A DNA stretch of 27,970 nucleotides, taken from IMG/VR virus record IMGVR_UViG_3300009173_000061, positions 1 through 27,970 of that record; one strand, given 5' to 3'. Shown here piece by piece: positions 6,048 to 23,836 of this stretch (position 1 is its first letter; every line of letters starts with the position of its first letter). The notes beneath the pieces are model-generated. The model searched no databases. It was not told the origin of the DNA and saw nothing but the letters and a program-made list of their open reading frames with translations. Source of the DNA: a virus. The translations under genes and the position numbers were made by a program.

Positions 6048-9000
6048 CTATCCTAATAGTTTAAAATTATGTTTCAGGCTGCGGGTGCTGAATCCCCATT
6101 GCTCATCATATTCTAGCTTTGCCATGTAAGGGTGGTTGACGTGTAGAACATCCCTCTCAGGGTTCACCCCCCAGCATTTAATGTTTGTAGAGATTCCTGA
6201 CGAGTCTACAACTGTAACGATCCAATAAGTTTTTCCGTGTTTCGTTTTCTTCGGAATAATTTCCCTTGGTACGAACCAACACACACCCAAAGCAGGATCG
6301 TATTCTCCCAAGGGTGGAACACAGTGATGGTCTAGTTGACTTTGGATTGCTTGATCCATAATTAAGTTCATTGGAAAAACCCCAGATAAGTTCACAAGAT
6401 ATTCTATCTTTTCTTCGTCGGTGAAATCTCCCTCAGCCGCATACCGTTTAATATTGGTGTCCAGATGAGATTGAGTTCTTGGTCGATCTACAGCCACGGA
6501 CGACCAGAAGTGTTTGAGTCCGGTAAACCTATCATCCACCAAGGTGTTCAAGGCTTGGCTTCGGGTGAGCACATCCAACGCCTTCTTGTTCAGCTTGCTA
6601 TAAATAATCTCTTCACTAAAGATAAAATCCTCAATGGATGCGAAGGGGCGATTTTTAATAATTTGTTCCATTGCTGCATCACCCAAGCCCTTAATTGAGG
6701 TCAGTGGTTGAATCAGCGTCTTTCCATCCTCGGAAATTTCCCATACCTTGCCAGATTTATTAATATCTAGAGGGGCAATTTTGAAACCCATCGACTTGGC
6801 AATGTTGATCGCTTTTTCTTTTCTAGACTCTGGCTCCTTGTCCAAGAACGCCGCCATCCACTCCGCTGAATAATAATTCAGCAACCATGCACATTGATAA
6901 GATAGAATGCTGTATGATACGGCATGACTCTTGTTGAATCCATACCCTGAGAAATACTCAAACGTTTGCCACAAAGTCTTCGCAGCTTCTTCCGTCAATC
7001 CCTTTTCAACACACCCTTCAACAAACCTATCATGTAACGCTATCTTTACTTTAGCCTCTTTGCCAGTGCCTCTCTTGGTGAGAACCTTCCTAAGCATATT
7101 CCCCTCATCCAAAGAAATATTTTTACCAAGCTTGTGTGCCAGCAATGCAATTTGCTCTTGAAAGATGAGGAATCCATAAGTCTCTTCAGTAACTTCCCTA
7201 GCCTCGTCACAAATGTAAGAAACGCTCTCTGGGTCTTTGACTGCTGCGATATAATGTTTATCTACCTTTGCGCTCAAAGGACCGGGACGGAAAATAGCCG
7301 TGACTGCTGCCAGATCAATAATGCTATTGGGCTTTGCCCTTTTGCAGAAGTTTTGTGAACCTGTCTCTGTGAACTGAAAAATGCCAGCCCAACGACCTCG
7401 GTGAAAAATGTTTTTATAAACATTCTCGTCTGACATATCTAACACGTCAGGATGTAGGTGTTCGTCGTAGTATGCTTTAATCTCTTCAAACGTTGGCTCT
7501 TCGATACCACAATGCCTCTTCAAAATATGACGAATTGAACCTTCAATCATACGCAAAGAGGCGAGTCCAAGAATGTCAAATTTAATGAACCCCATTGGTT
7601 CAAGATGACGAACGTTCTGTCCCTCTGCCCAAGGAGTTTGCCTCACTCCACCGCTATAGATCAAAGGCATGTTTTTATCAAGGTCTTCGGCAATAACCAC
7701 GCCACCAGCATGGCGTGAACAAGAGCGTACCTGTCCCACCAGCCTCTTAATGTGTGTTTCTACTTGTGGATACTTCCGCAAAAAATCTTTCAAGGTTCTA
7801 CTGTGTTCCATAACTTCTTCCCAAGTAGGAACATATATGCCAGCAGACTGACCACGCAACTTCTTAACAATCGGAGTTGCCTCTTTCAACATCTTGTTGG
7901 TTACAGGATTAACCTCAACAAAAGGAATGTTATAGAACTTTGATACATCTTTGACCAACGACCGAAGTTGCAAAGTGTTCCAGTTTGAAATTGGGACAAC
8001 AGTGTTCTCGCCCCACTCCTTAACCAGCAGTTCTTTAATGGTCATTGGATCGCTTACATCATAATCAATGTCTGGGTATCCCTTGCCACCCTTGGTCAAG
8101 AACCTCTCAAACTGGAGCCTATATTTAATAGGATCAACTTGCGTAATGTTCAAGGCATACGCAACCAGCGAACCAGCAGCCGAACCACGACCGGGACTAA
8201 CCAATTGAATGGCAGATGATTTATCTGCAATTGCTTTCATGGTGAGAAAGTATTTGCTGAATCCTCGATCTTTAATAACCTCCAACTCTCTTTTCAGTTG
8301 ATTGATGTATTGTAGAGTCTTTTCGTCGTCCATCGGCTCTACAATTTTACGCAAGCCCTCGACGGATGACTGGGACAACGCTTCGTCTGCGGTCATACCA
8401 TCAGGCACCACGAAATCTGGTAGCCTTACCTCGTTGTCTGGCATGAAAGATTCAATTCGGTCATGGGCAATTGAGTGTGTGTTTGTAATAGACTTTAGAA
8501 CTAGGTCGTCATCATACGCAACGCCACACTTAGCAGAATACCGCTGGTATGCCTCCCACATCTGGTCGCCATTTTTAGGATACAGTTCATATGCCATGTC
8601 TTCAATAGACTCTGGTAGCGCAGTATCCGTATTACTTCCCTTGCTGTTAAGCCACGCAAGCTTGCGGTAAAGCTCCCTATCCTTCCACGCCTCTGGCGTT
8701 GGATAGTGGCTGTCGGCAGTAGAGATTAGTTCAAACCCAAACTCTTCCTGAATCTTGATAATGTATCTGTTCACTTCGTGCTGCTCTGGAACAGAGTTCC
8801 ACTGCAACTCGCCGTACCACCTGTCTCCAAAAATATCTTGCATGTTGCGGGTGGTTTCTCGCATCGCCTCAAGAACAGCCTCTTCGCCTGCGTCCTTGTT
8901 ACGCCAGAAATCATTAGAGTAGATCCCACTCAAGCAAGCTGACGCAACAATCACACCCTCGCTATGCTCACGCAACAAATCATAATCAATGCGAGGGAAT

Positions 9001-9491
9001 CTATAAAAGTTCTCTGGCAGAAACGACTTTGAGATCAGGGAGAAAATATTAGTTAATCCCGTCTGGTTTTGAGCCAGTAGAATCAGGTGACTACGCTGCC
9101 GAAGAATATCATTTTGCTGCCGAGTTTCAGTTTCAATAACTGTGCCCTGTGAGACTACCTTCTTTTTGGAACCTCGACCTTTCTTTTGAGATTGCTTCTC
9201 ATCATAAACCTTTTGCCACTCAGCAATTGATTTAATAAAGTAAGCCTCAACACCAAAGATGGGTTTGAAATCTTTACCATCTTCATGCATTCTCTTCGCA
9301 TGAAGCACTTGATATGCCAGCCCATTGGCATTGCCATGATCAGTTAAAGCAAGAGCATCCATACCATTGCCATAGGCGTAGTCCATGTGCTCTTGTGGGT
9401 ATCCTATTCCATCAAACGGTGAACCCGCTACGCTATGAGCGTGAAGCCCCACAAAGGGGATTGAGGACTGTGTTCGTGCTGTGTCGGTCAT
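6048..9491 (-). CDS. dnaE: DNA polymerase III alpha subunit (DnaE type) with intact PHP metal site
   Basis: The 1147-residue protein is a full-length bacterial family C polymerase. The N-terminal PHP domain keeps all nine metal ligands known from active PHP exonucleases: H17, H19, D27, H52, E82, H135, C186, D260 and H262. A Lys/Gln-rich insertion of about 30 residues (97-126) interrupts it. The palm has GRGSAAGSLVAY, catalytic D474 and D476 in PDIDYD, and a third acid, D639, in KFDILGL. A fingers/HhH region and an OB-fold-like domain (near 1070-1115) follow. No separate DnaQ-type proofreader is seen in the window, so PHP may proofread. The start forms ATGA with the upstream gene's stop, and a perfect sigma70 promoter sits 84 bases upstream. 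Confidence 0.95.
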   Translation of the reverse strand: MTDTARTQSSIPFVGLHAHSVAGSPFDGIGYPQEHMDYAYGNGMDALALTDHGNANGLAYQVLHAKRMHEDGKDFKPIFGVEAYFIKSIAEWQKVYDEKQSQKKGRGSKKKVVSQGTVIETETRQQNDILRQRSHLILLAQNQTGLTNIFSLISKSFLPENFYRFPRIDYDLLREHSEGVIVASACLSGIYSNDFWRNKDAGEEAVLEAMRETTRNMQDIFGDRWYGELQWNSVPEQHEVNRYIIKIQEEFGFELISTADSHYPTPEAWKDRELYRKLAWLNSKGSNTDTALPESIEDMAYELYPKNGDQMWEAYQRYSAKCGVAYDDDLVLKSITNTHSIAHDRIESFMPDNEVRLPDFVVPDGMTADEALSQSSVEGLRKIVEPMDDEKTLQYINQLKRELEVIKDRGFSKYFLTMKAIADKSSAIQLVSPGRGSAAGSLVAYALNITQVDPIKYRLQFERFLTKGGKGYPDIDYDVSDPMTIKELLVKEWGENTVVPISNWNTLQLRSLVKDVSKFYNIPFVEVNPVTNKMLKEATPIVKKLRGQSAGIYVPTWEEVMEHSRTLKDFLRKYPQVETHIKRLVGQVRSCSRHAGGVVIAEDLDKNMPLIYSGGVRQTPWAEGQNVRHLEPMGFIKFDILGLASLRMIEGSIRHILKRHCGIEEPTFEEIKAYYDEHLHPDVLDMSDENVYKNIFHRGRWAGIFQFTETGSQNFCKRAKPNSIIDLAAVTAIFRPGPLSAKVDKHYIAAVKDPESVSYICDEAREVTEETYGFLIFQEQIALLAHKLGKNISLDEGNMLRKVLTKRGTGKEAKVKIALHDRFVEGCVEKGLTEEAAKTLWQTFEYFSGYGFNKSHAVSYSILSYQCAWLLNYYSAEWMAAFLDKEPESRKEKAINIAKSMGFKIAPLDINKSGKVWEISEDGKTLIQPLTSIKGLGDAAMEQIIKNRPFASIEDFIFSEEIIYSKLNKKALDVLTRSQALNTLVDDRFTGLKHFWSSVAVDRPRTQSHLDTNIKRYAAEGDFTDEEKIEYLVNLSGVFPMNLIMDQAIQSQLDHHCVPPLGEYDPALGVCWFVPREIIPKKTKHGKTYWIVTVVDSSGISTNIKCWGVNPERDVLHVNHPYMAKLEYDEQWGFSTRSLKHNFKLLG

Positions 9492-9763
9492 ACTTTCTCC
9501 AGTCTGCTGACTGCTAATTCTAATTCATCTTGTGCTGATTTAATGCAATCAACAACTTCTTCTATATCTTCCCTATTATACAACATATACATCAGGCTGT
9601 CAACAAAAAACTTCTGTTCAGTTGTCAATTCATAATAATAATTGGGAAAGCCTACATCTTCCTTCTCTAGATAAGAAACACTATTGTATTTCCCCTCCAG
9701 TCTTGATTGCACAGCCTTACTTTCCTTCACTGTCATTTCCAAATCCAATTGGGTTCCACTCAT
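9488..9763 (-). CDS. small acidic helical protein of unknown function, upstream of dnaE
   Basis: The product of up to 91 residues is acidic and mostly helical, with a Tyr-rich middle (NYYYELT) and an EEVVDCIKSAQDELE helix near the end. I do not recognise it. The ATG at 9763 has no evident ribosome site and overlaps the upstream gene by 47 bases. An internal ATG at 9736 with a weak GGA nearby would give 82 residues, so the start is uncertain. The stop overlaps the dnaE ATG as ATGA, so it is probably co-translated with the polymerase. Its codons contain a perfect TTGACA-17-TATAAT promoter. Confidence 0.65.
   Translation of the reverse strand: MSGTQLDLEMTVKESKAVQSRLEGKYNSVSYLEKEDVGFPNYYYELTTEQKFFVDSLMYMLYNREDIEEVVDCIKSAQDELELAVSRLEKV
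9575..9603 (-). promoter_or_regulatory. sigma70 promoter, perfect consensus, upstream of dnaE
   Basis: TTGACA lies at 9603-9598 and TATAAT at 9580-9575 on the minus strand, with 17 bases between them. It is embedded in the coding sequence of the small acidic protein, 84 bases before the dnaE start. Confidence 0.75.
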
Positions 9764-10595
9764 GATATTTTAACCTCTCCGGTCTGATAATTTGTTTGCT
9801 TTCTTTTGAACCAATGTACTGTTCATACCCACTCCATGTGTCTATGTTGTGATACCACGGAACCTCGATCTGTTTGTCTATTATAACAGATTCAAAAACT
9901 TTGTCAAGGGAAAAATGTCTTGCAGAGTATTGTTTATGTAGGGGCAATCTTTTCCCATCGCTGCCCATCATATTAGTTCCTTGCTTCTTAACCACGTCAC
10001 GGCATTTTTTAAAATCCTCGGCGTCAAATGTGAATCCAAGGTAGTGCCCTTTTATAACAGACTCTCCCCCCGTTGTCAAGCAAAAAGGTTGTCTGCTTGA
10101 AATTGTTTTTCTGTGTTCACGCAAGACTTCAACTGGATATACCCCGTAAGGAAAAGAAACATAGTATCTGTCTGGAGCCACCCATTTACTTAACTGCTTG
10201 CTTAGGTGATATGCTGTTACGGCACCGTGTAGGACACTCCAACTAAGACAGTCTCTCCTGTCTCTGTCCTTCGGGTGTATCGGCACATAAAAAATTGGAA
10301 TCTTACGCTCTTCTTGAGTGGGGAACGGACCTCGATTGAGTGAAACTGGATCGTATACCGACTCACCGACACGGTGTCTTATAAGAGGTTGCATATTAGC
10401 ATGACACACAATCCAGATCGTTTCACACCCAGCCATTGCACTCTCATACACTGCTCGTTCCACCGCAAGATAATCTAGTCCAATGGGCATCAATGAATCG
10501 TGCCAAGGAAAATTAAACTCAAGTGGTTGACCAGCGACAGGTACAATCCCAGCCAAATGGAAAGAGTTTATATTTTGTGGTCCATTCTCAATCAT
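9717..10595 (-). CDS. degenerate nucleotidyltransferase-like (GT-A fold) protein
   Basis: The 292-residue product begins with HLAGIVPVAGQP, then MPIGLDYLAVERAVYESAMAGCETIWIVC. This follows the layout of sugar-phosphate nucleotidyltransferases: a hydrophobic strand with a V/PxAG loop, a conserved Pro segment, a helix and a second strand ending in IVC. The glycine loop lacks the usual Arg, and the Lys of the following PK motif is replaced (SLMPIG), so normal catalysis is doubtful. It could be a changed or inactive member. Its start forms ATGA with the upstream gene. Two near-consensus sigma70 promoters lie inside it. The sugar or base substrate is unknown. The family call is from motif layout only. 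Confidence 0.55.
   Translation of the reverse strand: MIENGPQNINSFHLAGIVPVAGQPLEFNFPWHDSLMPIGLDYLAVERAVYESAMAGCETIWIVCHANMQPLIRHRVGESVYDPVSLNRGPFPTQEERKIPIFYVPIHPKDRDRRDCLSWSVLHGAVTAYHLSKQLSKWVAPDRYYVSFPYGVYPVEVLREHRKTISSRQPFCLTTGGESVIKGHYLGFTFDAEDFKKCRDVVKKQGTNMMGSDGKRLPLHKQYSARHFSLDKVFESVIIDKQIEVPWYHNIDTWSGYEQYIGSKESKQIIRPERLKYHEWNPIGFGNDSEGK
9880..9907 (-). promoter_or_regulatory. sigma70 promoter, extended -10, inside the nucleotidyltransferase-like gene
   Basis: TTGACA (9907-9902) and TATAAT (9885-9880), both perfect, are separated by 16 bases. The -10 box is preceded by TGT, an extended -10 element. It could drive the small acidic gene and dnaE. Confidence 0.65.
10051..10079 (-). promoter_or_regulatory. 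sigma70 promoter, extended -10, inside the nucleotidyltransferase-like gene
   Basis: TTGACA (10079-10074), 17 bases, then TATAAA (10056-10051), preceded by TGT. It lies about 170 bases upstream of the promoter at 9880-9907 in the same reading frame. Confidence 0.6.
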
Positions 10596-11266
10596 ATAAA
10601 TTCTACAAACTCTGTTTTCGGATAAATAGTTTTTTCGTCTGGCTGTACTTCTCTTTTAACAACCTCGATCTTTCCACGAATGCCGTGATCCTGCATCATT
10701 TTCAAGACCTTCAACCGAACATAGGAATCGGACCAGTCTGGATCTTTTAGCTGCGCCCCCGTCATGTATGAAATAGCTGCTGCGTCCTTTTTGTCGGGGT
10801 GGTAGCCATCAAGCCTCTCGGTTGGATAAAAGAATACACACTTAACAAAGTCTGTTGTATCTTCTATGACATGAATGTCATGTGACATTCCAGAATATAC
10901 ATTAATCCAATCCACAACTTTAAATTTATCACACTTCTCATATGGCGTCGGCAATCCCTCAATATTGTCTCCGTTGTTAGAAACTATCAGCTTTTGACCG
11001 ACAGCGACAACGTATGTTTTGTTCGATGCTATCACAATTAATTTATTATTCTCTATACGCAGCCGAGAAACCTTTTCCCCAAAAGGAATTAACCCCGCAA
11101 GGGAAAGGGACATACATAAAGCGTCCCATTCTTCTCGACCACCTTCAATTATATTTGGGGGGTTTGGATTAAAAAATATGACCGGGCAAGTGTTTTTGTG
11201 AGCGTACTTTAAAGATTGCAGATCGCCACCTAACACCACCCGGTCATACTCTAAATCATAAATCAA
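10592..11266 (-). CDS. conserved-looking phage protein of unknown function
   Basis: The 224-residue product opens with YDRVVLGGDLQSLKYA, a strand-glycine-helix start that resembles the beginning of a Rossmann-type nucleotide-binding domain. A Pro-rich NPNPPN follows. Later segments include SGMSHDIHVIEDTTDFV, FFYPTERLDGYH and SYMTGAQLKDPDWSDSY. The pattern looks like a protein shared by marine phages, but I cannot name a function. ATGA junctions join it to genes on both sides (the transglycosylase upstream, the nucleotidyltransferase-like gene downstream), and the pair may act together. Confidence 0.65.
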   Translation of the reverse strand: MIYDLEYDRVVLGGDLQSLKYAHKNTCPVIFFNPNPPNIIEGGREEWDALCMSLSLAGLIPFGEKVSRLRIENNKLIVIASNKTYVVAVGQKLIVSNNGDNIEGLPTPYEKCDKFKVVDWINVYSGMSHDIHVIEDTTDFVKCVFFYPTERLDGYHPDKKDAAAISYMTGAQLKDPDWSDSYVRLKVLKMMQDHGIRGKIEVVKREVQPDEKTIYPKTEFVEFI

Positions 11267-11766
11267 CGTTGTTCTCTTTTAATTTTGTTTACTTCTGCCA
11301 ACAACTTGCTCGCAGTTCTTCGCACACTTCTAGAATATCTCACGCCAGATTCATTAGGGGTCTTGCCCTTACATCTAAAGCCAGCCAAATAAGCACACAA
11401 TCCAATCTTATATTTTCCCCTACCATATCTGTGAGTGAAGTAGGAAAGTACCCTGCTTCCTGCCCAAATGCTAGTTGTGGGATCAAACAATTGTTTGCAA
11501 GTATATTTTGGATTGCCAACCTTTTTTGAACCAGTATATTTTGGAAGAACTTGAGTCAACCCACAGGCACCAGCCTTGCTTTTAGCTTTTGGTTTCCATC
11601 GGCTCTCATGATGAATCAACGCCACCAGAATTTCTGGTTTGACGTTGGTTGCCTCTGCTGCGGCAACTACAGTGGACATGTGCTTACATGCGTACTCTGC
11701 TCTGTCTGGATAGTCGCCTATACCTATTGATACAGATGCCAAGCACAATAATTCCACCAAGGTCAT
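11263..11766 (-). CDS. lytic transglycosylase (SLT/goose-lysozyme-like fold)
   Basis: The 167-residue product has the transglycosylase signature ALIHHESRWKPKAKSKAGACGLTQVLP. Glu54 in HHESR is the expected catalytic acid, and GLTQVLP is the second conserved block. LFDPTTSIWAGSRVLSYF follows and matches the third block, with a Tyr-rich CAYLAGF at the fourth. It cleaves the glycan strand of peptidoglycan. A hydrophobic N-terminus (residues 1-17) without positive charge could be a signal or signal-anchor, so a lysis role across the inner membrane is possible. A role in DNA entry cannot be excluded. It lies close to a lipoprotein gene, which fits an envelope function. Confidence 0.88.
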   Translation of the reverse strand: MTLVELLCLASVSIGIGDYPDRAEYACKHMSTVVAAAEATNVKPEILVALIHHESRWKPKAKSKAGACGLTQVLPKYTGSKKVGNPKYTCKQLFDPTTSIWAGSRVLSYFTHRYGRGKYKIGLCAYLAGFRCKGKTPNESGVRYSRSVRRTASKLLAEVNKIKREQR

Positions 11767-18764: not shown

Positions 18765-19901
18765 TTATGCTTCTTGAGGTTGTGACTCTTCTTCTCCATC
18801 CACATCATAAAAATTGGAGGCATCACCCTCACGTCGATCAAACTTTAAAATAATCTCATCGTCCATGATTTCTAGGATTCTATTTTTAAACTTTTCGCTT
18901 TCCAGCTTCTCATCCCAACCACTAGATTGAAACTTTTCGCTGGTGCCATCGGCATACTTGAGCGTATACCATGCACCGCTGTTCACCACATTGTCTGTGC
19001 CCTTCACAGCCTCAAGCCAACTTGCCTGATCTTGGATGCCGACTTCGCCGCCCCACAAAATCTTGAAAGCACATTGCCTACCTTGAGTCCCAAAGCGAGA
19101 CTTCTGAATCTTTACCTTTACTTCGGAGCCGATACGATAACCGTGTTCATCCACAATAAAAGAAGCCTTTGCCTTTCGTCCGGTCAGCCACACACGCAAG
19201 CTATAAGTATAGTGCATTGCCTTACCCCCCGGCGTGAAGTACGGAGTTGTCATGGCTTCCGCCACGTTGCTTGTAATGTTTGTCTTTAGCTGATTCAAAA
19301 CCAGTAAGGTGGCTTGAGCATTTGCAATCGGCTGCACCAGTTTCGCCATACCTTTAGAGAGGATTCGTGGCTTCACTGCCATTGAACTCAAAGGGTTATA
19401 GTCTCCCTCAATGTCGGTCCTACTTGGTGTCAAGGCTAGACTGTCCCACACAAACAACAGTCTATTGTCAGAACTAGCCAACAACTCTTCAATTGTTTCC
19501 AGCACAAACTCGACCGACTCTGCCTGTACATAAAGAACCTCTTCGACATTACACCCAGCCGCTTCAAGAAACGATGGATCAATTGCAGATTCAGCATCAA
19601 AATAAACCACATCAATACCCATTTTTTGAGCATTGGCTGCGGTCTGTGCCGCCATATAAGATTTACCTGTAGATTCCAAACCAGCAAATTCTGTCACCTT
19701 GCCAACTGGAACTCCACCTAACTTGCCTCGACAAATAATACTGTCTAGCCAGCGAGAGCCAGTCGGAATAAAATCCACTACCTCCGTGGGGCTTCCATTT
19801 GTCAAATCAAATGCAACATTTGACCCTGCTCGTTTGTTGATAAGCTTCCGCATATCAGCGACGGAAAGCTTTCCCGCCTTGTCATTGTTCTTTTTAGCCA
19901 C
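18765..19901 (-). CDS. uvsX: RecA/UvsX-type recombinase
   Basis: The 378-residue product has Walker A GLESTGKS (74-81), an ESAIDPSFLEAAG helix region, Walker B LLFVWDSL (about 147-154), and LVLNQLKTNI with the glutamine that senses ATP. The PGGKAMHYTYSLRVWL strand block follows, and an acidic C-terminal tail (EGDAS...EEESQPQ) ends the protein. It coats single-stranded DNA and pairs homologous strands for recombination-dependent replication and repair. The start is GTG at 19901 with AAGGGA eight bases upstream. The gap before it holds a duplicated hairpin element followed by a T-run. Confidence 0.92.
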   Translation of the reverse strand: MAKKNNDKAGKLSVADMRKLINKRAGSNVAFDLTNGSPTEVVDFIPTGSRWLDSIICRGKLGGVPVGKVTEFAGLESTGKSYMAAQTAANAQKMGIDVVYFDAESAIDPSFLEAAGCNVEEVLYVQAESVEFVLETIEELLASSDNRLLFVWDSLALTPSRTDIEGDYNPLSSMAVKPRILSKGMAKLVQPIANAQATLLVLNQLKTNITSNVAEAMTTPYFTPGGKAMHYTYSLRVWLTGRKAKASFIVDEHGYRIGSEVKVKIQKSRFGTQGRQCAFKILWGGEVGIQDQASWLEAVKGTDNVVNSGAWYTLKYADGTSEKFQSSGWDEKLESEKFKNRILEIMDDEIILKFDRREGDASNFYDVDGEEESQPQEA

Positions 19902-19944
19902 TGTATTTCCCTTATTATAAAATGTTTGATAACATTAAAAAAAT

Positions 19945-19978
19945 GAGACACCTGATAACCCTGTGCCTCCCTGTGGGA
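19945..19978 (-). repeat. duplicated intergenic hairpin element, copy 1 (before recA)
   Basis: A block shared exactly over 30 bases with 20257-20286 starts 12 bases after the stop of the 71-residue gene. On the minus strand TCCC-ACA-GGGA forms a small hairpin (19978-19968). GAGGCAC and GTGTCTC (19969-19963 and 19951-19945) then form a seven-pair stem with an 11-base loop and one G-U pair. ATTTTTTTAATG follows, so this copy also looks like a terminator or attenuator. Confidence 0.75.
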
Positions 19979-19989
19979 CTTACTAATCT

Positions 19990-20205
19990 CTACTTCGTTT
20001 GAACAAACTGATAGAGTTTTTCAGCCTCCACAAGAACGTCTTCTGTTGCATAGGGAGTGATTGGCTTACGGTGGTAAGCGCCATCATTCTCTGCAAGGAA
20101 ATGTTCATTGCTTTCTTGTCGCCCATTGCGACTCTCAAGGATTCCGATTGCCATTCCTAGCAAATCGGTGCGTAGTTCATACGCATTTCTACTGTCATTA
20201 CTCAT
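19990..20205 (-). CDS. small conserved-looking phage protein of unknown function
   Basis: The 71-residue product contains NAYELRTDLLGMAIGILESR and ends PYATEDVLVEAEKLYQFVQTK. A helix with an (N/P)-YE(L/I)R start followed by a PY-xxEDVLxEAxKLYxFV end is a pattern seen in small proteins next to replication genes in T4-like marine phages. No activity is known to me. GGAGG precedes the ATG. It sits between ssb and recA, with a copy of the same hairpin element after ssb and another after itself. Confidence 0.75.
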   Translation of the reverse strand: MSNDSRNAYELRTDLLGMAIGILESRNGRQESNEHFLAENDGAYHRKPITPYATEDVLVEAEKLYQFVQTK

Positions 20206-20252
20206 AATATACCCTCCAAGGTTGTGTGTGTGTTGAGTAACACGTTAAAGTT

Positions 20253-20286
20253 GAGGCACCTGATAACCCTGTGCCTCCCTGTGGGA
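20253..20286 (-). repeat. duplicated intergenic hairpin element, copy 2 (after ssb)
   Basis: This is the second copy, 308 bases from the first, starting 13 bases after the ssb stop. The minus-strand stem GAGGCAC/GTGCCTC (20277-20271 and 20259-20253) is perfect over seven pairs with the same 11-base loop AGGGTTATCAG. TCCC-ACA-GGGA precedes it. There is only a weak T-run after this copy (AACTTTAACG), so simple termination is less likely here. Confidence 0.75.
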
Positions 20287-20298
20287 TTGCTCTAACTT

Positions 20299-21051
20299 CT
20301 AACCGAGCAAGTCATTAAACGCATCTTCAACCGTATTAGAAGTATTACTAGAACTGTTATACTTCGTGGTTTCAGAAGAGGATTCCTCAGCCGATTCGTC
20401 ATCCGACGCAAGGTACTCATCCAGCATGGTTTGTACATCCTGTGGAGTCTTGCGATCAAACAACCCGTCGATCTCAGGGATTGCCTCAAGCATTTCAGCA
20501 CACTGCTCATCCGTCAATTCAGGACACACCGAAGTGGTCTTTCGTGACGGGGTGAGTCGTGTCTGTGGAAACGACGCTCCCGCTGGCTTACCATAAACCA
20601 TCGTAAGGTCAGTGCCCTCGGACGGATCAGTAATATCACCGTACTCAGGATTGAGAACAAGGTTAAGAAGCTGCTCATACACAGTCTTACCGTATCCCCA
20701 AATTCGCACACCTTTGCTCTCTTCACCACGCACAATTACGGGCGAGAAGAAACGCTGACGAGCGCCAAGATTCTTAGCCATCTTGACACTATCATCGGTG
20801 CCCTCACTCCAAAGCTGACGAATGAAATCGTCCAATGGATCAGCCTCACCAAAGTTTCGTTTTGGACTCAAAAACCCAGCGTTCTTGCCAAGGTTATAAT
20901 GGAACCAAAACTCCTTGAAAGGATCTCCATCTGCTGTTGGAACAATACGAATCGTCTGTTCCCCATCTGACGGACGCCAGAACTTAGAGTCCTTGCCTCC
21001 GCTGCTTAGCTTATTAAGCTTACTTCTCATCTTTTTTAGATCAATACCCAT
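20299..21051 (-). CDS. ssb: single-stranded DNA-binding protein (T4 gp32-like)
   Basis: The 250-residue product has a basic N-terminus and then an OB-fold-type core. The core has FWRPSDGEQTIRIVP, a HYNLGKNAGFLSPKRNFGEADPL block, VIVRGEESKGVRIWGYGKTVYEQLL, and a YGDITDPSEGTDL segment. It ends in a Ser-rich linker and an acidic tail, VEDAFNDLLG. This is the layout of phage gp32-type SSBs, where the acidic tail recruits partners. It protects single strands and should work with RecA, helicase and polymerase encoded here. A GGAG site is present. The 76-base leader holds two inverted repeats that could serve autoregulation. Confidence 0.88.
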   Translation of the reverse strand: MGIDLKKMRSKLNKLSSGGKDSKFWRPSDGEQTIRIVPTADGDPFKEFWFHYNLGKNAGFLSPKRNFGEADPLDDFIRQLWSEGTDDSVKMAKNLGARQRFFSPVIVRGEESKGVRIWGYGKTVYEQLLNLVLNPEYGDITDPSEGTDLTMVYGKPAGASFPQTRLTPSRKTTSVCPELTDEQCAEMLEAIPEIDGLFDRKTPQDVQTMLDEYLASDDESAEESSSETTKYNSSSNTSNTVEDAFNDLLG

Positions 21052-21073
21052 TTTTACTTTCTCCTATTTAAGC

Positions 21074-21116
21074 GGGTTAATTACCCTTGAGTATATTCGG
21101 CAAATATTCCGAATAT
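21074..21116 (-). promoter_or_regulatory. two inverted repeats in the ssb leader
   Basis: On the minus strand ATATTCGG and CCGAATAT (21116-21109 and 21100-21093) form an eight-pair stem with an eight-base loop. GGGT and ACCC (21086-21074) form a second short stem with a five-base loop. They fill most of the leader between the candidate promoter and the GGAG site. They could be an autogenous operator for the SSB, as known for T4 gene 32, or a processing signal. Confidence 0.5.
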
Positions 21117-21126
21117 CTGTTTTACT

Positions 21127-21156
21127 ACTATACCACAGTAGCGGTGGTTTTGTTAA
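21127..21156 (-). promoter_or_regulatory. candidate ssb promoter
   Basis: TTAACA (21156-21151), 18 bases, TATAGT (21132-21127) on the minus strand. It overlaps the end of the 94-residue gene. Transcription starting near 21120 would give a leader of about 70 bases carrying both inverted repeats. Confidence 0.45.
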
Positions 21157-21412
21157 CCCCAACATTCAAAAAATTGGTGTTGGTGTGAACATATTGATCG
21201 GGGGTTCCGACAACAGTGTTCCAGTTAAAAACTCGGAAACCGTTATTTTCAATATCCCAAACAAGTTCCAAACCTTCAGCGAGATTTCGTTCAGTACCAG
21301 ACCCATTGACCTTGGTATTCAGAAATTCCGTTGGAAGTTCATTTAATTGCACAAAATTCATGGTGCGCTCGTCACCGTTCTTCTTGCGAAATGTTGCTGT
21401 ATATGCTTTCAT
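21128..21412 (-). CDS. small protein of unknown function, upstream of ssb
   Basis: The 94-residue product is predicted to be mainly beta strands: KAYTATFRKKNG, MNFVQLNELP, GLELVWDIENNGFRVFNWNTVVG. A mostly-beta small domain with a WDIExxGFRxFNWNT block suggests an SH3- or DUF2693-like fold, but I cannot assign it. AAGGAGAG precedes the ATG, and a TTAACA-17-TATAAT promoter lies just upstream, so it heads its own unit and leads into ssb. Confidence 0.7.
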   Translation of the reverse strand: MKAYTATFRKKNGDERTMNFVQLNELPTEFLNTKVNGSGTERNLAEGLELVWDIENNGFRVFNWNTVVGTPDQYVHTNTNFLNVGVNKTTATVV

Positions 21413-21435
21413 ATTCTCTCTCCTTTCTTGTTACT

Positions 21436-21464
21436 ATTATAGCCCATTTGGACTAGCTTGTTAA
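21436..21464 (-). promoter_or_regulatory. sigma70 promoter upstream of the 94-residue gene and ssb
   Basis: TTAACA (21464-21459), 17 bases, TATAAT (21441-21436). The -35 box overlaps the last codons of the tubulin-like gene and the -10 box is intergenic. AAGGAGAG follows at the proper place for the 94-residue gene. Confidence 0.75.
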
Positions 21465-22328
21465 GCTTTTTTTTAATTTTTCTTCACCTTGAATCGCATC
21501 CGAGTAGGACACGCAGTAGGCAAAGTTTTTATCATACTTTGTCTTGTGGATTCTATACGAAATCCTAACGTCTTCTTTTTCTGCTTTGCTTCTAATCTGC
21601 TCCTTTAGTGACTTGAACATTTTGCCGTCCTTTAAGGACTTTTCTTGTATAGCAAAATAATAACACTTTTCTCTCACGTTGTCAAGTGGAAAAAAAGATT
21701 TTTCTTCTCCTGTCTCTACATCAATGATTCCAAATGTTGAAATCCGTGTGTGTATATCTGGTGGTGAGATATTCTCAAGAATCGAGTCTGTATTTTTAAA
21801 AATGTTAATCATGTGGATGGTTGACACCACCGTTTCATTTAACTTCTCATAATACCCTTCGACTGGAACCTCGCCAGCCACCTCTTCGACGCTTGGATTG
21901 TAAATTAAATAAATCCTTTCAAACATTCCCGACCTAGCATACTCTTGCAGAATATAATAAGTCACTCTGTCTTGGATGTACTTGACGCCGCCGATCAAAG
22001 TAATGTCTGGCTTCACATAGAGCAAACTCAAATCATTCCCAGAAGATTTAAGCTGTTCCATGAGTTGAAGAGTTGCCCCTGATATTTTGCCGCCGCCGCC
22101 CACAATAAATAAAATTTCTTCTTCCGATTTGATCTTCTTAAAAAACTTTATTAGACTTGGGCAGGAGGACTCATACAACTCTGAGCTTGTTTGGACTGGC
22201 ATAGAATATACATTAGCGCCTGTGGATTCCACACCCGCATCGATCTTGAATATTTTATATTGAGAATGCTTAGCAAACTCATCTGCCACACGGCAACCCG
22301 CCTGACCTAGCCCAACAATCACATCCAT
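21453..22328 (-). CDS. divergent FtsZ/tubulin-superfamily-like protein
   Basis: The 291-residue product starts MDVIVGLGQAGCRVADEF, the strand-Gly loop-helix of the tubulin/FtsZ nucleotide domain (T1 loop). Residues 74-85, FIVGGGGKISGA, occupy the place of the tubulin signature GGGTGTG (T4 loop), in degenerate form. VKPD (106-109) follows at the T5 position and IYNPSVEEV (142-150) resembles FtsZ IPNDRLL. A long helix (159-178, H7-like) is followed directly by NTDSILE (179-185), close to the catalytic T7 loop NxDxxE/D but spaced by one residue. The length is near that of phage PhuZ tubulins (about 315). It may form filaments for DNA or capsid positioning; this is inference. Its 3' part contains a sigma70 promoter. 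Confidence 0.55.
   Translation of the reverse strand: MDVIVGLGQAGCRVADEFAKHSQYKIFKIDAGVESTGANVYSMPVQTSSELYESSCPSLIKFFKKIKSEEEILFIVGGGGKISGATLQLMEQLKSSGNDLSLLYVKPDITLIGGVKYIQDRVTYYILQEYARSGMFERIYLIYNPSVEEVAGEVPVEGYYEKLNETVVSTIHMINIFKNTDSILENISPPDIHTRISTFGIIDVETGEEKSFFPLDNVREKCYYFAIQEKSLKDGKMFKSLKEQIRSKAEKEDVRISYRIHKTKYDKNFAYCVSYSDAIQGEEKLKKSLTS
21657..21685 (-). promoter_or_regulatory. sigma70 promoter, extended -10, inside the tubulin-like gene
   Basis: TTGACA (21685-21680), 17 bases, TATTAT (21662-21657), preceded by TGT. It lies about 200 bases before the gene's stop, in codons for LDNVREKCYY. Confidence 0.6.
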
Positions 22329-22329
22329 C

Positions 22330-22650
22330 TTAATCCTCGACCGACTCTAAAATGTATCCATTGTAAAACCGACCACGGGTAGCAGCTTTATCCTCTTTAA
22401 CCTTCATAACAGCGAAGCTATCGTGTCCAAGGACGTGAGCTAGAGCATCTAGGACTTCACTAATATCAGCGATCTCTTCAATGGATGGTTGCTCTAGAAA
22501 CTCACCCACCTCTTCTTGTAACTTTGCCTTAAGCGCACGGGTGTACTCTTCAACGTCCACAGCCTTGTGCCACTTGAATTCTTTTTCTTTATTAACCAAG
22601 ATGGTCGGAATTTCGTCCCGAACCAGCTTGTTATATACTGTTGTTGCCAT
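22330..22650 (-). CDS. MazG-like NTP pyrophosphohydrolase
   Basis: The 106-residue product has the all-alpha NTP pyrophosphohydrolase layout: YNKLVRDEIP at the start, EEVGEFLE (ExxE, residues about 46-53), and IEEIADISEVLDAL with the second metal-binding ExxD. It closely follows the pattern of the small house-cleaning family (YNKLVRDKIP type). It would hydrolyse a nucleoside triphosphate to the monophosphate, cleaning up damaged or unwanted nucleotides. Lowering of (p)ppGpp has been proposed for some phage MazG proteins. Its start overlaps polA by 20 bases and its stop is one base from the tubulin-like ATG. Confidence 0.85.
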   Translation of the reverse strand: MATTVYNKLVRDEIPTILVNKEKEFKWHKAVDVEEYTRALKAKLQEEVGEFLEQPSIEEIADISEVLDALAHVLGHDSFAVMKVKEDKAATRGRFYNGYILESVED

Positions 22651-23836
22651 TTGTTAACTCCTTCATGTTTCCAAAATCTTTACCCACCCGCACGTTCACC
22701 CTGAACTCGCCAAATGGAGTATCACCAAACAACTTGATGACATGTGGTATAATATAACACTCTTTCTCTTTAATGTCAAGCACTAAATTGTCATGAATGC
22801 AAAAACTTATTCGTGACTCCTTGTCTTGAAGATAATCATTCACAGCAAGCAACTGTCCCAAGAACACATCGCTGGTTGTGCTTTGAATAATGTAATTCAA
22901 GGCATGTTCCTCATCTGCTGGAATTGTCCTGTCACAAACTGTCTCCACTTGGCTCCCATTGAAGTAACTTCGTACAACAATGGATCTATTATACACCGCT
23001 TCTGCTTTTTTGTTAAGGGCTTTCGGATTATAAAGCCAAGCAAATATCTTTTTCTTAGCCTCGTCCCTCGTTACGCCACCCCCAAAAATATTTTTTATGT
23101 TCCAATTATGCATGTCTTCTGTGGGCTGGTCCTTGCCAGACAGGGCTAAGAGCGTTCTAAGCTCCGCTGCATTGAAGTCTAGCTCAACAAACAAGTCGTT
23201 GGTTGGTTGCAGAATCTTTCTGTAATCTTTATCCATCGTCAAGATCGGAAAGCTTTTCTTGTGGGTGGTTAGCCGACCAGTCTTAGTGCCGAATACATTA
23301 TAAGAAATTCTTGGATTCCTCATGTTAACAATTTGCTTCCAAAAATTCCTAACCCTTGTGTTGTGCCGCTCACTATTAAGAGCCGATGGGTTCAACGCAA
23401 GGTCGTTGTTTCCTATGTCTCCCATTACCTCGCTCAGCTTGACCATAAACTCATAGTTCTTTGGCTTTGGATAGGCGTCAAAGACCGCTGCCGTAATTAA
23501 ATTTTTAACACGGCAATACTCATAAAGAAAATTCTCCGGTACTAAATCATAAAAACAATGTTCGTCCAGTGAAACCTTAGCCTCAAGGAAAGAACGTAAA
23601 TATGCCTTCATCTTCTTACTAACTGATTGCCAGTGGGGGCGAATGTTCTCTGGACACACTTCATCCAATGACCGTCCACCACAGTAAATCTGGGCATAAT
23701 CAATTTTGCGTCCCTTTAGAGCAGGGGCATATGACCACGTTTGTGATAAATTTTCTGGGATACTGTCATAAACAATTGTGTCGCCAGTAAAAACCCCAAC
23801 ACAATGCTTCTTGTCATCCAACAATTGAAATGGCAA
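22631..23836 (-). CDS. polA: family A DNA polymerase, polymerase domain only
   Basis: The 401-residue product has the TGRL block (residues 187-190). Motif A is FVELDFNAAELR with catalytic D220. Motif B is a perfect O-helix spacing R257-K261-F265-Y269. Motif C is HDN at 348-350, where Pol I has HDE, so the catalytic Asp349 is kept and the neighbouring Glu is Asn. No 3' or 5' exonuclease domain is present. The residue equal to E. coli Phe762 is Phe265. With the separate 5' nuclease this could process Okazaki fragments while the phage DnaE copies the bulk DNA, but which enzyme replicates the genome is unproved. Two promoter-like sequences lie inside it. Confidence 0.88.
   Translation of the reverse strand: MPFQLLDDKKHCVGVFTGDTIVYDSIPENLSQTWSYAPALKGRKIDYAQIYCGGRSLDEVCPENIRPHWQSVSKKMKAYLRSFLEAKVSLDEHCFYDLVPENFLYEYCRVKNLITAAVFDAYPKPKNYEFMVKLSEVMGDIGNNDLALNPSALNSERHNTRVRNFWKQIVNMRNPRISYNVFGTKTGRLTTHKKSFPILTMDKDYRKILQPTNDLFVELDFNAAELRTLLALSGKDQPTEDMHNWNIKNIFGGGVTRDEAKKKIFAWLYNPKALNKKAEAVYNRSIVVRSYFNGSQVETVCDRTIPADEEHALNYIIQSTTSDVFLGQLLAVNDYLQDKESRISFCIHDNLVLDIKEKECYIIPHVIKLFGDTPFGEFRVNVRVGKDFGNMKELTNGNNSI
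22751..22779 (-). promoter_or_regulatory. sigma70 promoter, extended -10, inside polA
   Basis: TTGACA (22779-22774), 17 bases, TATATT (22756-22751), preceded by TGT. It lies about 100 bases upstream of the MazG-like start, just after the codons for the HDN motif. Confidence 0.65.
22988..23016 (-). promoter_or_regulatory. sigma70 promoter inside polA
   Basis: TTAACA (23016-23011), 17 bases, TATAAT (22993-22988). It lies within the codons following the polymerase O-helix. Confidence 0.6.

Follow-up and report, generated by a model that had tools for sequence, protein, structure and literature searches.

The phage fragment analysed here, 27,970 bases long and referred to as the window, contains a T4-like replication module in which lies the gene of a diverged protein of the tubulin/FtsZ superfamily (291 aa, 21453..22328, minus strand). 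Membership of the superfamily, which the predicted fold and profile homology both indicate, is almost certain. We call the protein TubA, a name given here to a new, reduced family that is a new variant of the tubulin/FtsZ superfamily and not a new fold. As for its function, we give about an even chance to TubA being a guanine-nucleotide-binding, hydrolysis-impaired tubulin homologue that would serve replication as a nucleotide-gated scaffold. A first-pass annotation had proposed a diverged member of the superfamily in the replication block at these coordinates; the coordinates hold, the strand is minus, and the proposal is supported by the predicted fold, by profile homology with controls and by conserved synteny.

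How is a tubulin fold recognised in such a sequence? Sequence searches of the PDB with the window's TubA find no relative, PF00091 gives no signal, TIGR00065 does not rise above its cut-off, and the Pfam, PHROG and NCBIfam libraries contain no model that TubA matches above cut-off. The AlphaFold2 model, built with 42 family sequences, has a pLDDT of 90.9 and a pTM of 0.90, with low confidence at residues 287-291, and its predicted structure is the two-domain tubulin/FtsZ fold with a central H7 helix. When this model is compared with the PDB by Foldseek, all 50 matches listed are FtsZ or TubZ (E 2.8e-12 to 1.8e-10, TMq 0.63-0.74), and structural alignments put the identity to FtsZ at 9-13%. Seven matches in BFVD have E <= 0.001, six of which reach a TMq of 0.51-0.82; two are named FtsZ or cell division protein and the others carry no informative name. 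Rossmann-type proteins in BFVD reach a TMq of at most 0.41 against TubA, compared with 0.82 for the best FtsZ-like match. By a condition named beforehand, the tubulin reading was to fall if the fold lacked a tubulin-type domain or if a Rossmann family matched better; both outcomes were looked for, in fold and in profile, and neither occurred.

Profile-profile comparison agrees with the model. By hhalign, a TubA profile of 112 sequences aligns with a combined FtsZ+PhuZ+TubB profile (TubB being a second FtsZ-like protein, described below) at 96.6% probability and a score of 78.8 over 159 columns, against at most 21.8 for 11 unrelated families from the same phages and at most 23.8 for reversed profiles. 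Significance is reached only with this pairing: against the separate profiles the same TubA profile scores 33.3 for FtsZ (16.8%), 40.9 for PhuZ (62.2%) and 25.2 for TubB (2.6%), and a 42-row TubA profile gives nothing significant against TubB, E. coli FtsZ or one PhuZ. The alignment spans S1 to H7 and places N144 on EcFtsZ N165, Y160 on F182 and N164 on N186.

Which parts of the nucleotide pocket are kept? Conservation was counted over 112 non-redundant sequences (<90% identity, query included). The T1 nucleotide loop GLGxAGC (residues 6-12, 22293..22313, minus) has G6, G8 and G11 in 111 of the 112, the remaining case being a gap, and C12 in 106; the VGLGQAGCR picked out in the first pass spans residues 5-13, and its glycines are near-invariant across the family. 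At the place of T4 stands the loop G-G-G-G-K-I-S-G-A (residues 77-85, 22074..22100, minus), within the VGGGGKISGA already seen at residues 76-85. The canonical GGGTG(S/T)G is absent and the family reads GxGx(I/V)SG, so T4 is indeed non-canonical. KPD, at residues 106-108, corresponds to the FtsZ T5 loop. The H7-like helix suspected from the sequence is present in the model as a core helix (residues 159-178, 21795..21854, minus) carrying Y160, N164, H172, M173 and N175, of which N164, H172 and M173 hardly vary, if at all, across the family. N164 is found in all 112 members, position 160 is Y or F in 96 (H, N, D or S in some others), and N144 (21897..21899, minus) is kept in 110. The aligned EcFtsZ residues N165, F182 and N186 are those we take, from FtsZ and tubulin structures, to be guanine contacts. 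As judged from the alignment, TubA keeps the positions of the guanine-contact residues (N144, Y160, N164), and it probably binds guanine nucleotide.

The catalytic side is another matter. The acidic residues of T7 complete the active site of the neighbouring subunit. At the place expected for T7 and H8 (residues 178-194, 21747..21797, minus), TubA has no conserved acidic residues and the model shows no helix; this stretch ranks near the top of the protein in variability (97.7th percentile). The string NTDSILE (residues 179-185), earlier taken for the T7 loop, reads NxDxxxE and not NxDxxE/D, and is there by chance, N-x-D-x-x-(x)-D/E occurring at this place in only three of 112 members including the query. 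All 112 members keep the same distance, 32 residues, from N164 to I196. Helix H8 is missing from the model, and so is H9, which would lie between S7 and S8; TubB, modelled in the same way, shows both, which means that the method as such is not to blame for their absence from TubA. By the alignment, the T7 catalytic loop of TubA is lost rather than merely non-canonical, and by the predicted structure H8 and H9 are lost as well. Nor were the C-terminal H11 and tail used in PhuZ and TubZ assembly found in TubA, in which the stretch after S10 is short and variable (alignment A1). Impaired hydrolysis is likely on these grounds. The idea that GTP turnover is altered or absent, already voiced in the first-pass annotation, stands as a probable prediction, supported by predicted fold, profile homology and synteny, with T4 non-canonical and T7 lost.

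TubA is by no means confined to the window. A scan of IMG/VR with the single protein returned 52 relatives, a profile scan returned at least 591 matches, and a divergent member used as query added a further branch. The median dN/dS of 0.075 over 149 closely related pairs indicates strong purifying selection on the protein. Among 50,697 annotated phage records there is no relative, and no published description of the family was found among open-licence papers. The sole match in a cellular genome comes from a WOR-3 MAG (CP070664.1, 2245201-2258046), where the phage gene order PolA-TubA-SSB-UvsX makes it probable that the stretch is phage DNA and not a cellular gene. This module sits in a single-contig MAG chromosome and may be a provirus or an assembly chimera.

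What surrounds the gene? Besides a UvsX-like recombinase, a gp32-like single-strand DNA-binding protein (SSB), a DnaB-like helicase, an exonuclease and a ribonucleotide reductase, the window encodes a family-A polymerase, a DnaE-type polymerase III alpha and a baseplate-wedge-like protein. The short family-A DNA polymerase (PolA, 401 aa, 22631..23836; PF00476, E 3.7e-13) overlaps the ORF of a small MazG-like protein (22330..22650) that separates it from TubA; these are the two neighbours claimed in the first pass. A WYL_2/Sm-like small protein (21128..21412; PF10902 at E 9e-4, below its cut-off) lies between TubA and the SSB (20299..21051; phrog_1192, E 6.6e-24), and the UvsX-like recombinase follows (18765..19901; phrog_97, E 9.5e-55), all on the minus strand. 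The MazG-like protein, named from its YNKLVRDEIP motif, has no Pfam or PHROG match; a homologue is found upstream of TubA in 40 of 83 relatives. The order of the main genes is strongly kept: PolA lies within 1.5 kb upstream of TubA in 79 of 83 non-redundant loci and the SSB downstream in 84 of 85, and a search begun from PolA found TubA downstream in 26 of 26 independently found loci, often only a few bases past the end of the polymerase. At best, such a gene order shows co-expression of TubA with PolA, SSB and UvsX and not a shared mechanism; on balance it favours a role in replication.

Several other features of the window deserve mention in their own right. The short PolA occurs together with the full-length DnaE-type polymerase III alpha (6048-9491), its motif C appears to read HDN and not HDE, and it has no match among annotated phages. 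An ORF resembling nucleotidyltransferases and an unknown one, both without PHROG matches, lie at 9717-11766, with a lysozyme-like ORF after them (named by eye). A conserved intergenic hairpin, CCCACAGGGAGGCACAGGGTTATCAGGTGCCTCA, is present in two copies on the minus strand (19932-19978 and 20240-20286) that flank a 71-aa ORF. It occurs in 70 of 371 loci, in relatives often 28-38 nt before uvsX, and its stem shows compensatory changes in some loci (AGGCAC/GTGCCT vs GGGCAC/GTGCCC); for CCC, the loop GGG would be another possible partner. It has no Rfam match and is possibly an RNA regulatory element.

A 166-kb TubA contig also encodes TubB, a 364-aa FtsZ-like protein (L134:1027-2121, minus; alignment A2) that stands for a second FtsZ-like family in marine phages. 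It matches PF00091 (E 3e-6) and TIGR00065 (E 9.5e-8) without reaching either curated cut-off, has canonical T1 and T4 motifs and (T)FDSKDLE as T7, and its model shows the full tubulin topology, H8 and H9 included. Annotated phage records contain no TubB. Seven contigs, of which two are near-identical, carry both TubA and TubB. A full hmmsearch scan found no TubB in a 184-kb TubA contig, a quicker search found none in other long TubA contigs, and most TubB contigs tested are without TubA; a strict pairing was rejected, as the genes often occur apart. In sister phages that have TubB (L251-L256), a hidden divergent TubA was sought between PolA and SSB; none was found, and other ORFs occupy the spot, exonuclease-like (279-285 aa) and HD-domain-like as named by eye. 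In one contig the gene beside TubB weakly matches a gp55-like late sigma factor (phrog_234, E 0.018).

How could a tubulin of this kind work? We infer that the standard pocket of TubA binds GTP or GDP and that, with the T7 acidic residues missing, the protein would not turn over GTP canonically, which would make it a nucleotide-gated scaffold, in the form of stable non-dynamic oligomers or a small assembly, with the task of organising the phage replication complex. Would such a protein still polymerise? The catalytic mutant D190A of PhuZ still needs GTP to polymerise and forms stable filaments (PMC4244570), so filaments of TubA would be compatible with a loss of catalysis taken by itself. In phiKZ TubZ, tubulin and FtsZ the longitudinal contact is formed by T7, the base of H8 and S9 (PMC3678025), and the usual contact is doubtful in TubA because H8 is lost. 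Filaments of TubA are possible, if somewhat doubtful.

The same loss of the longitudinal-interface elements T7 and H8 would suit a protein that never polymerises, a monomeric nucleotide-sensing accessory of a short PolA/SSB/UvsX replisome, and so would the near-constant position of TubA behind PolA. However, adjacency is expected for any co-expressed replication gene and an interaction with PolA is putative, and we regard this alternative as rather unlikely. Less likely still is a dynamic cytoskeletal filament of the PhuZ kind that positions replicating phage DNA via GTP hydrolysis. PhuZ has the same fold and centres DNA (PMC4244570), and the TubA gene lies in a replication block; against this, the T7 catalytic motif is missing in 109 of 112 members, the model has neither H8 nor H9, the T4 signature is altered, there is no conserved C-terminal tail, and TubA matches neither phrog_4733 nor PF22334 (a control PhuZ matches phrog_4733 at E 1.2e-105). 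Chimallin was detected in the 201phi2-1 control and in none of ten long contigs, a weak argument, as chimallin diverges fast and the contigs may be incomplete.

Could TubA act on the host instead, capping or poisoning the division filaments of FtsZ? An FtsZ-like protein that keeps the nucleotide face and lacks the T7/H8 face could well serve as a one-sided cap, but TubA is highly diverged from FtsZ and sits among replication genes, and the phage FtsZ inhibitors we know of (e.g. lambda Kil) are short proteins without homology to FtsZ; we hold this to be very improbable. The same low standing is given to a two-tubulin system in which TubB, with its canonical motifs, would supply T7 to TubA: the seven shared contigs favour it, and the long TubA contigs without TubB and the absence of TubA from most of the tested TubB contigs speak against it. 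The reading of TubA as an ordinary dinucleotide-binding Rossmann enzyme, to which 11 of 42 members give a semblance by weakly matching TrkA_N through the GxGxxG loop (best E 3.5e-4), is rejected by the fold, H7, the profile evidence and the structural scores given above, and is extremely improbable unless the model is wrong.

The tubulins known in phages come chiefly from jumbo phages that form a nucleus and from plasmid-like prophages. In uncultured marine phages there is now a large family, unannotated and under strong constraint, that widens the known uses of the superfamily. Tied to PolA, SSB and UvsX and without the T7/H8 face, TubA would be a clean case of tubulin function without canonical GTP hydrolysis, and the genomes with both TubA and TubB, if confirmed, would be those of phages with two tubulin homologues. 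The broadest picture is that widespread marine phages have fixed a degenerate, non-hydrolysing tubulin beside their DNA polymerase as a part of the replisome and not as a dynamic cytoskeleton, some of them having a canonical FtsZ-like protein as well and so being two-tubulin viruses; this we put forward as a speculation that may well prove wrong.

Where does TubA stand among known systems? With FtsZ (PF00091/PF12327, TIGR00065), the source of its best PDB matches together with TubZ, it shares the fold, the T1 loop and the positions of the guanine-contact Asn and the H7 Asn; unlike FtsZ it lacks GGGTG(S/T)G, the T7 NxDxxD, H8 and H9, and it has no FtsZ_C match. The closest structure is A0A6J5RW92, an 'FtsZ Cell division GTPase' of an uncultured Caudovirales phage in BFVD (TMq 0.82, E 8.8e-12), which differs from TubA in its length of 452 aa, has 14% identity to it and has a better E-value against TubB (2.4e-21). 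TubB belongs to the same superfamily and in part to the same genomes, but has the T7 loop and the helices H8 and H9 that TubA lacks. FtsZl-1 and FtsZl-2 (Makarova and Koonin 2010, PMC2875224) are likewise diverged FtsZ-like families recognised from profiles and gene context; unlike TubA they are described as cellular, in membrane-remodelling contexts. Of the partition features of TubZ, no tubS-like repeat array was found at 19800-22700 and no TubR-like neighbour in the window, which is a fragment. PhuZ, the best-studied phage tubulin, and phage TubZ (phrog_4733, PF22334) differ from TubA in family, C-terminal tail, T7 and T4, and TubA alone is found beside PolA and SSB; they have in common a phage-borne tubulin fold of similar length (291 aa in TubA vs 315 aa) and, for PhuZ and TubA, a possible link to replicating phage DNA.
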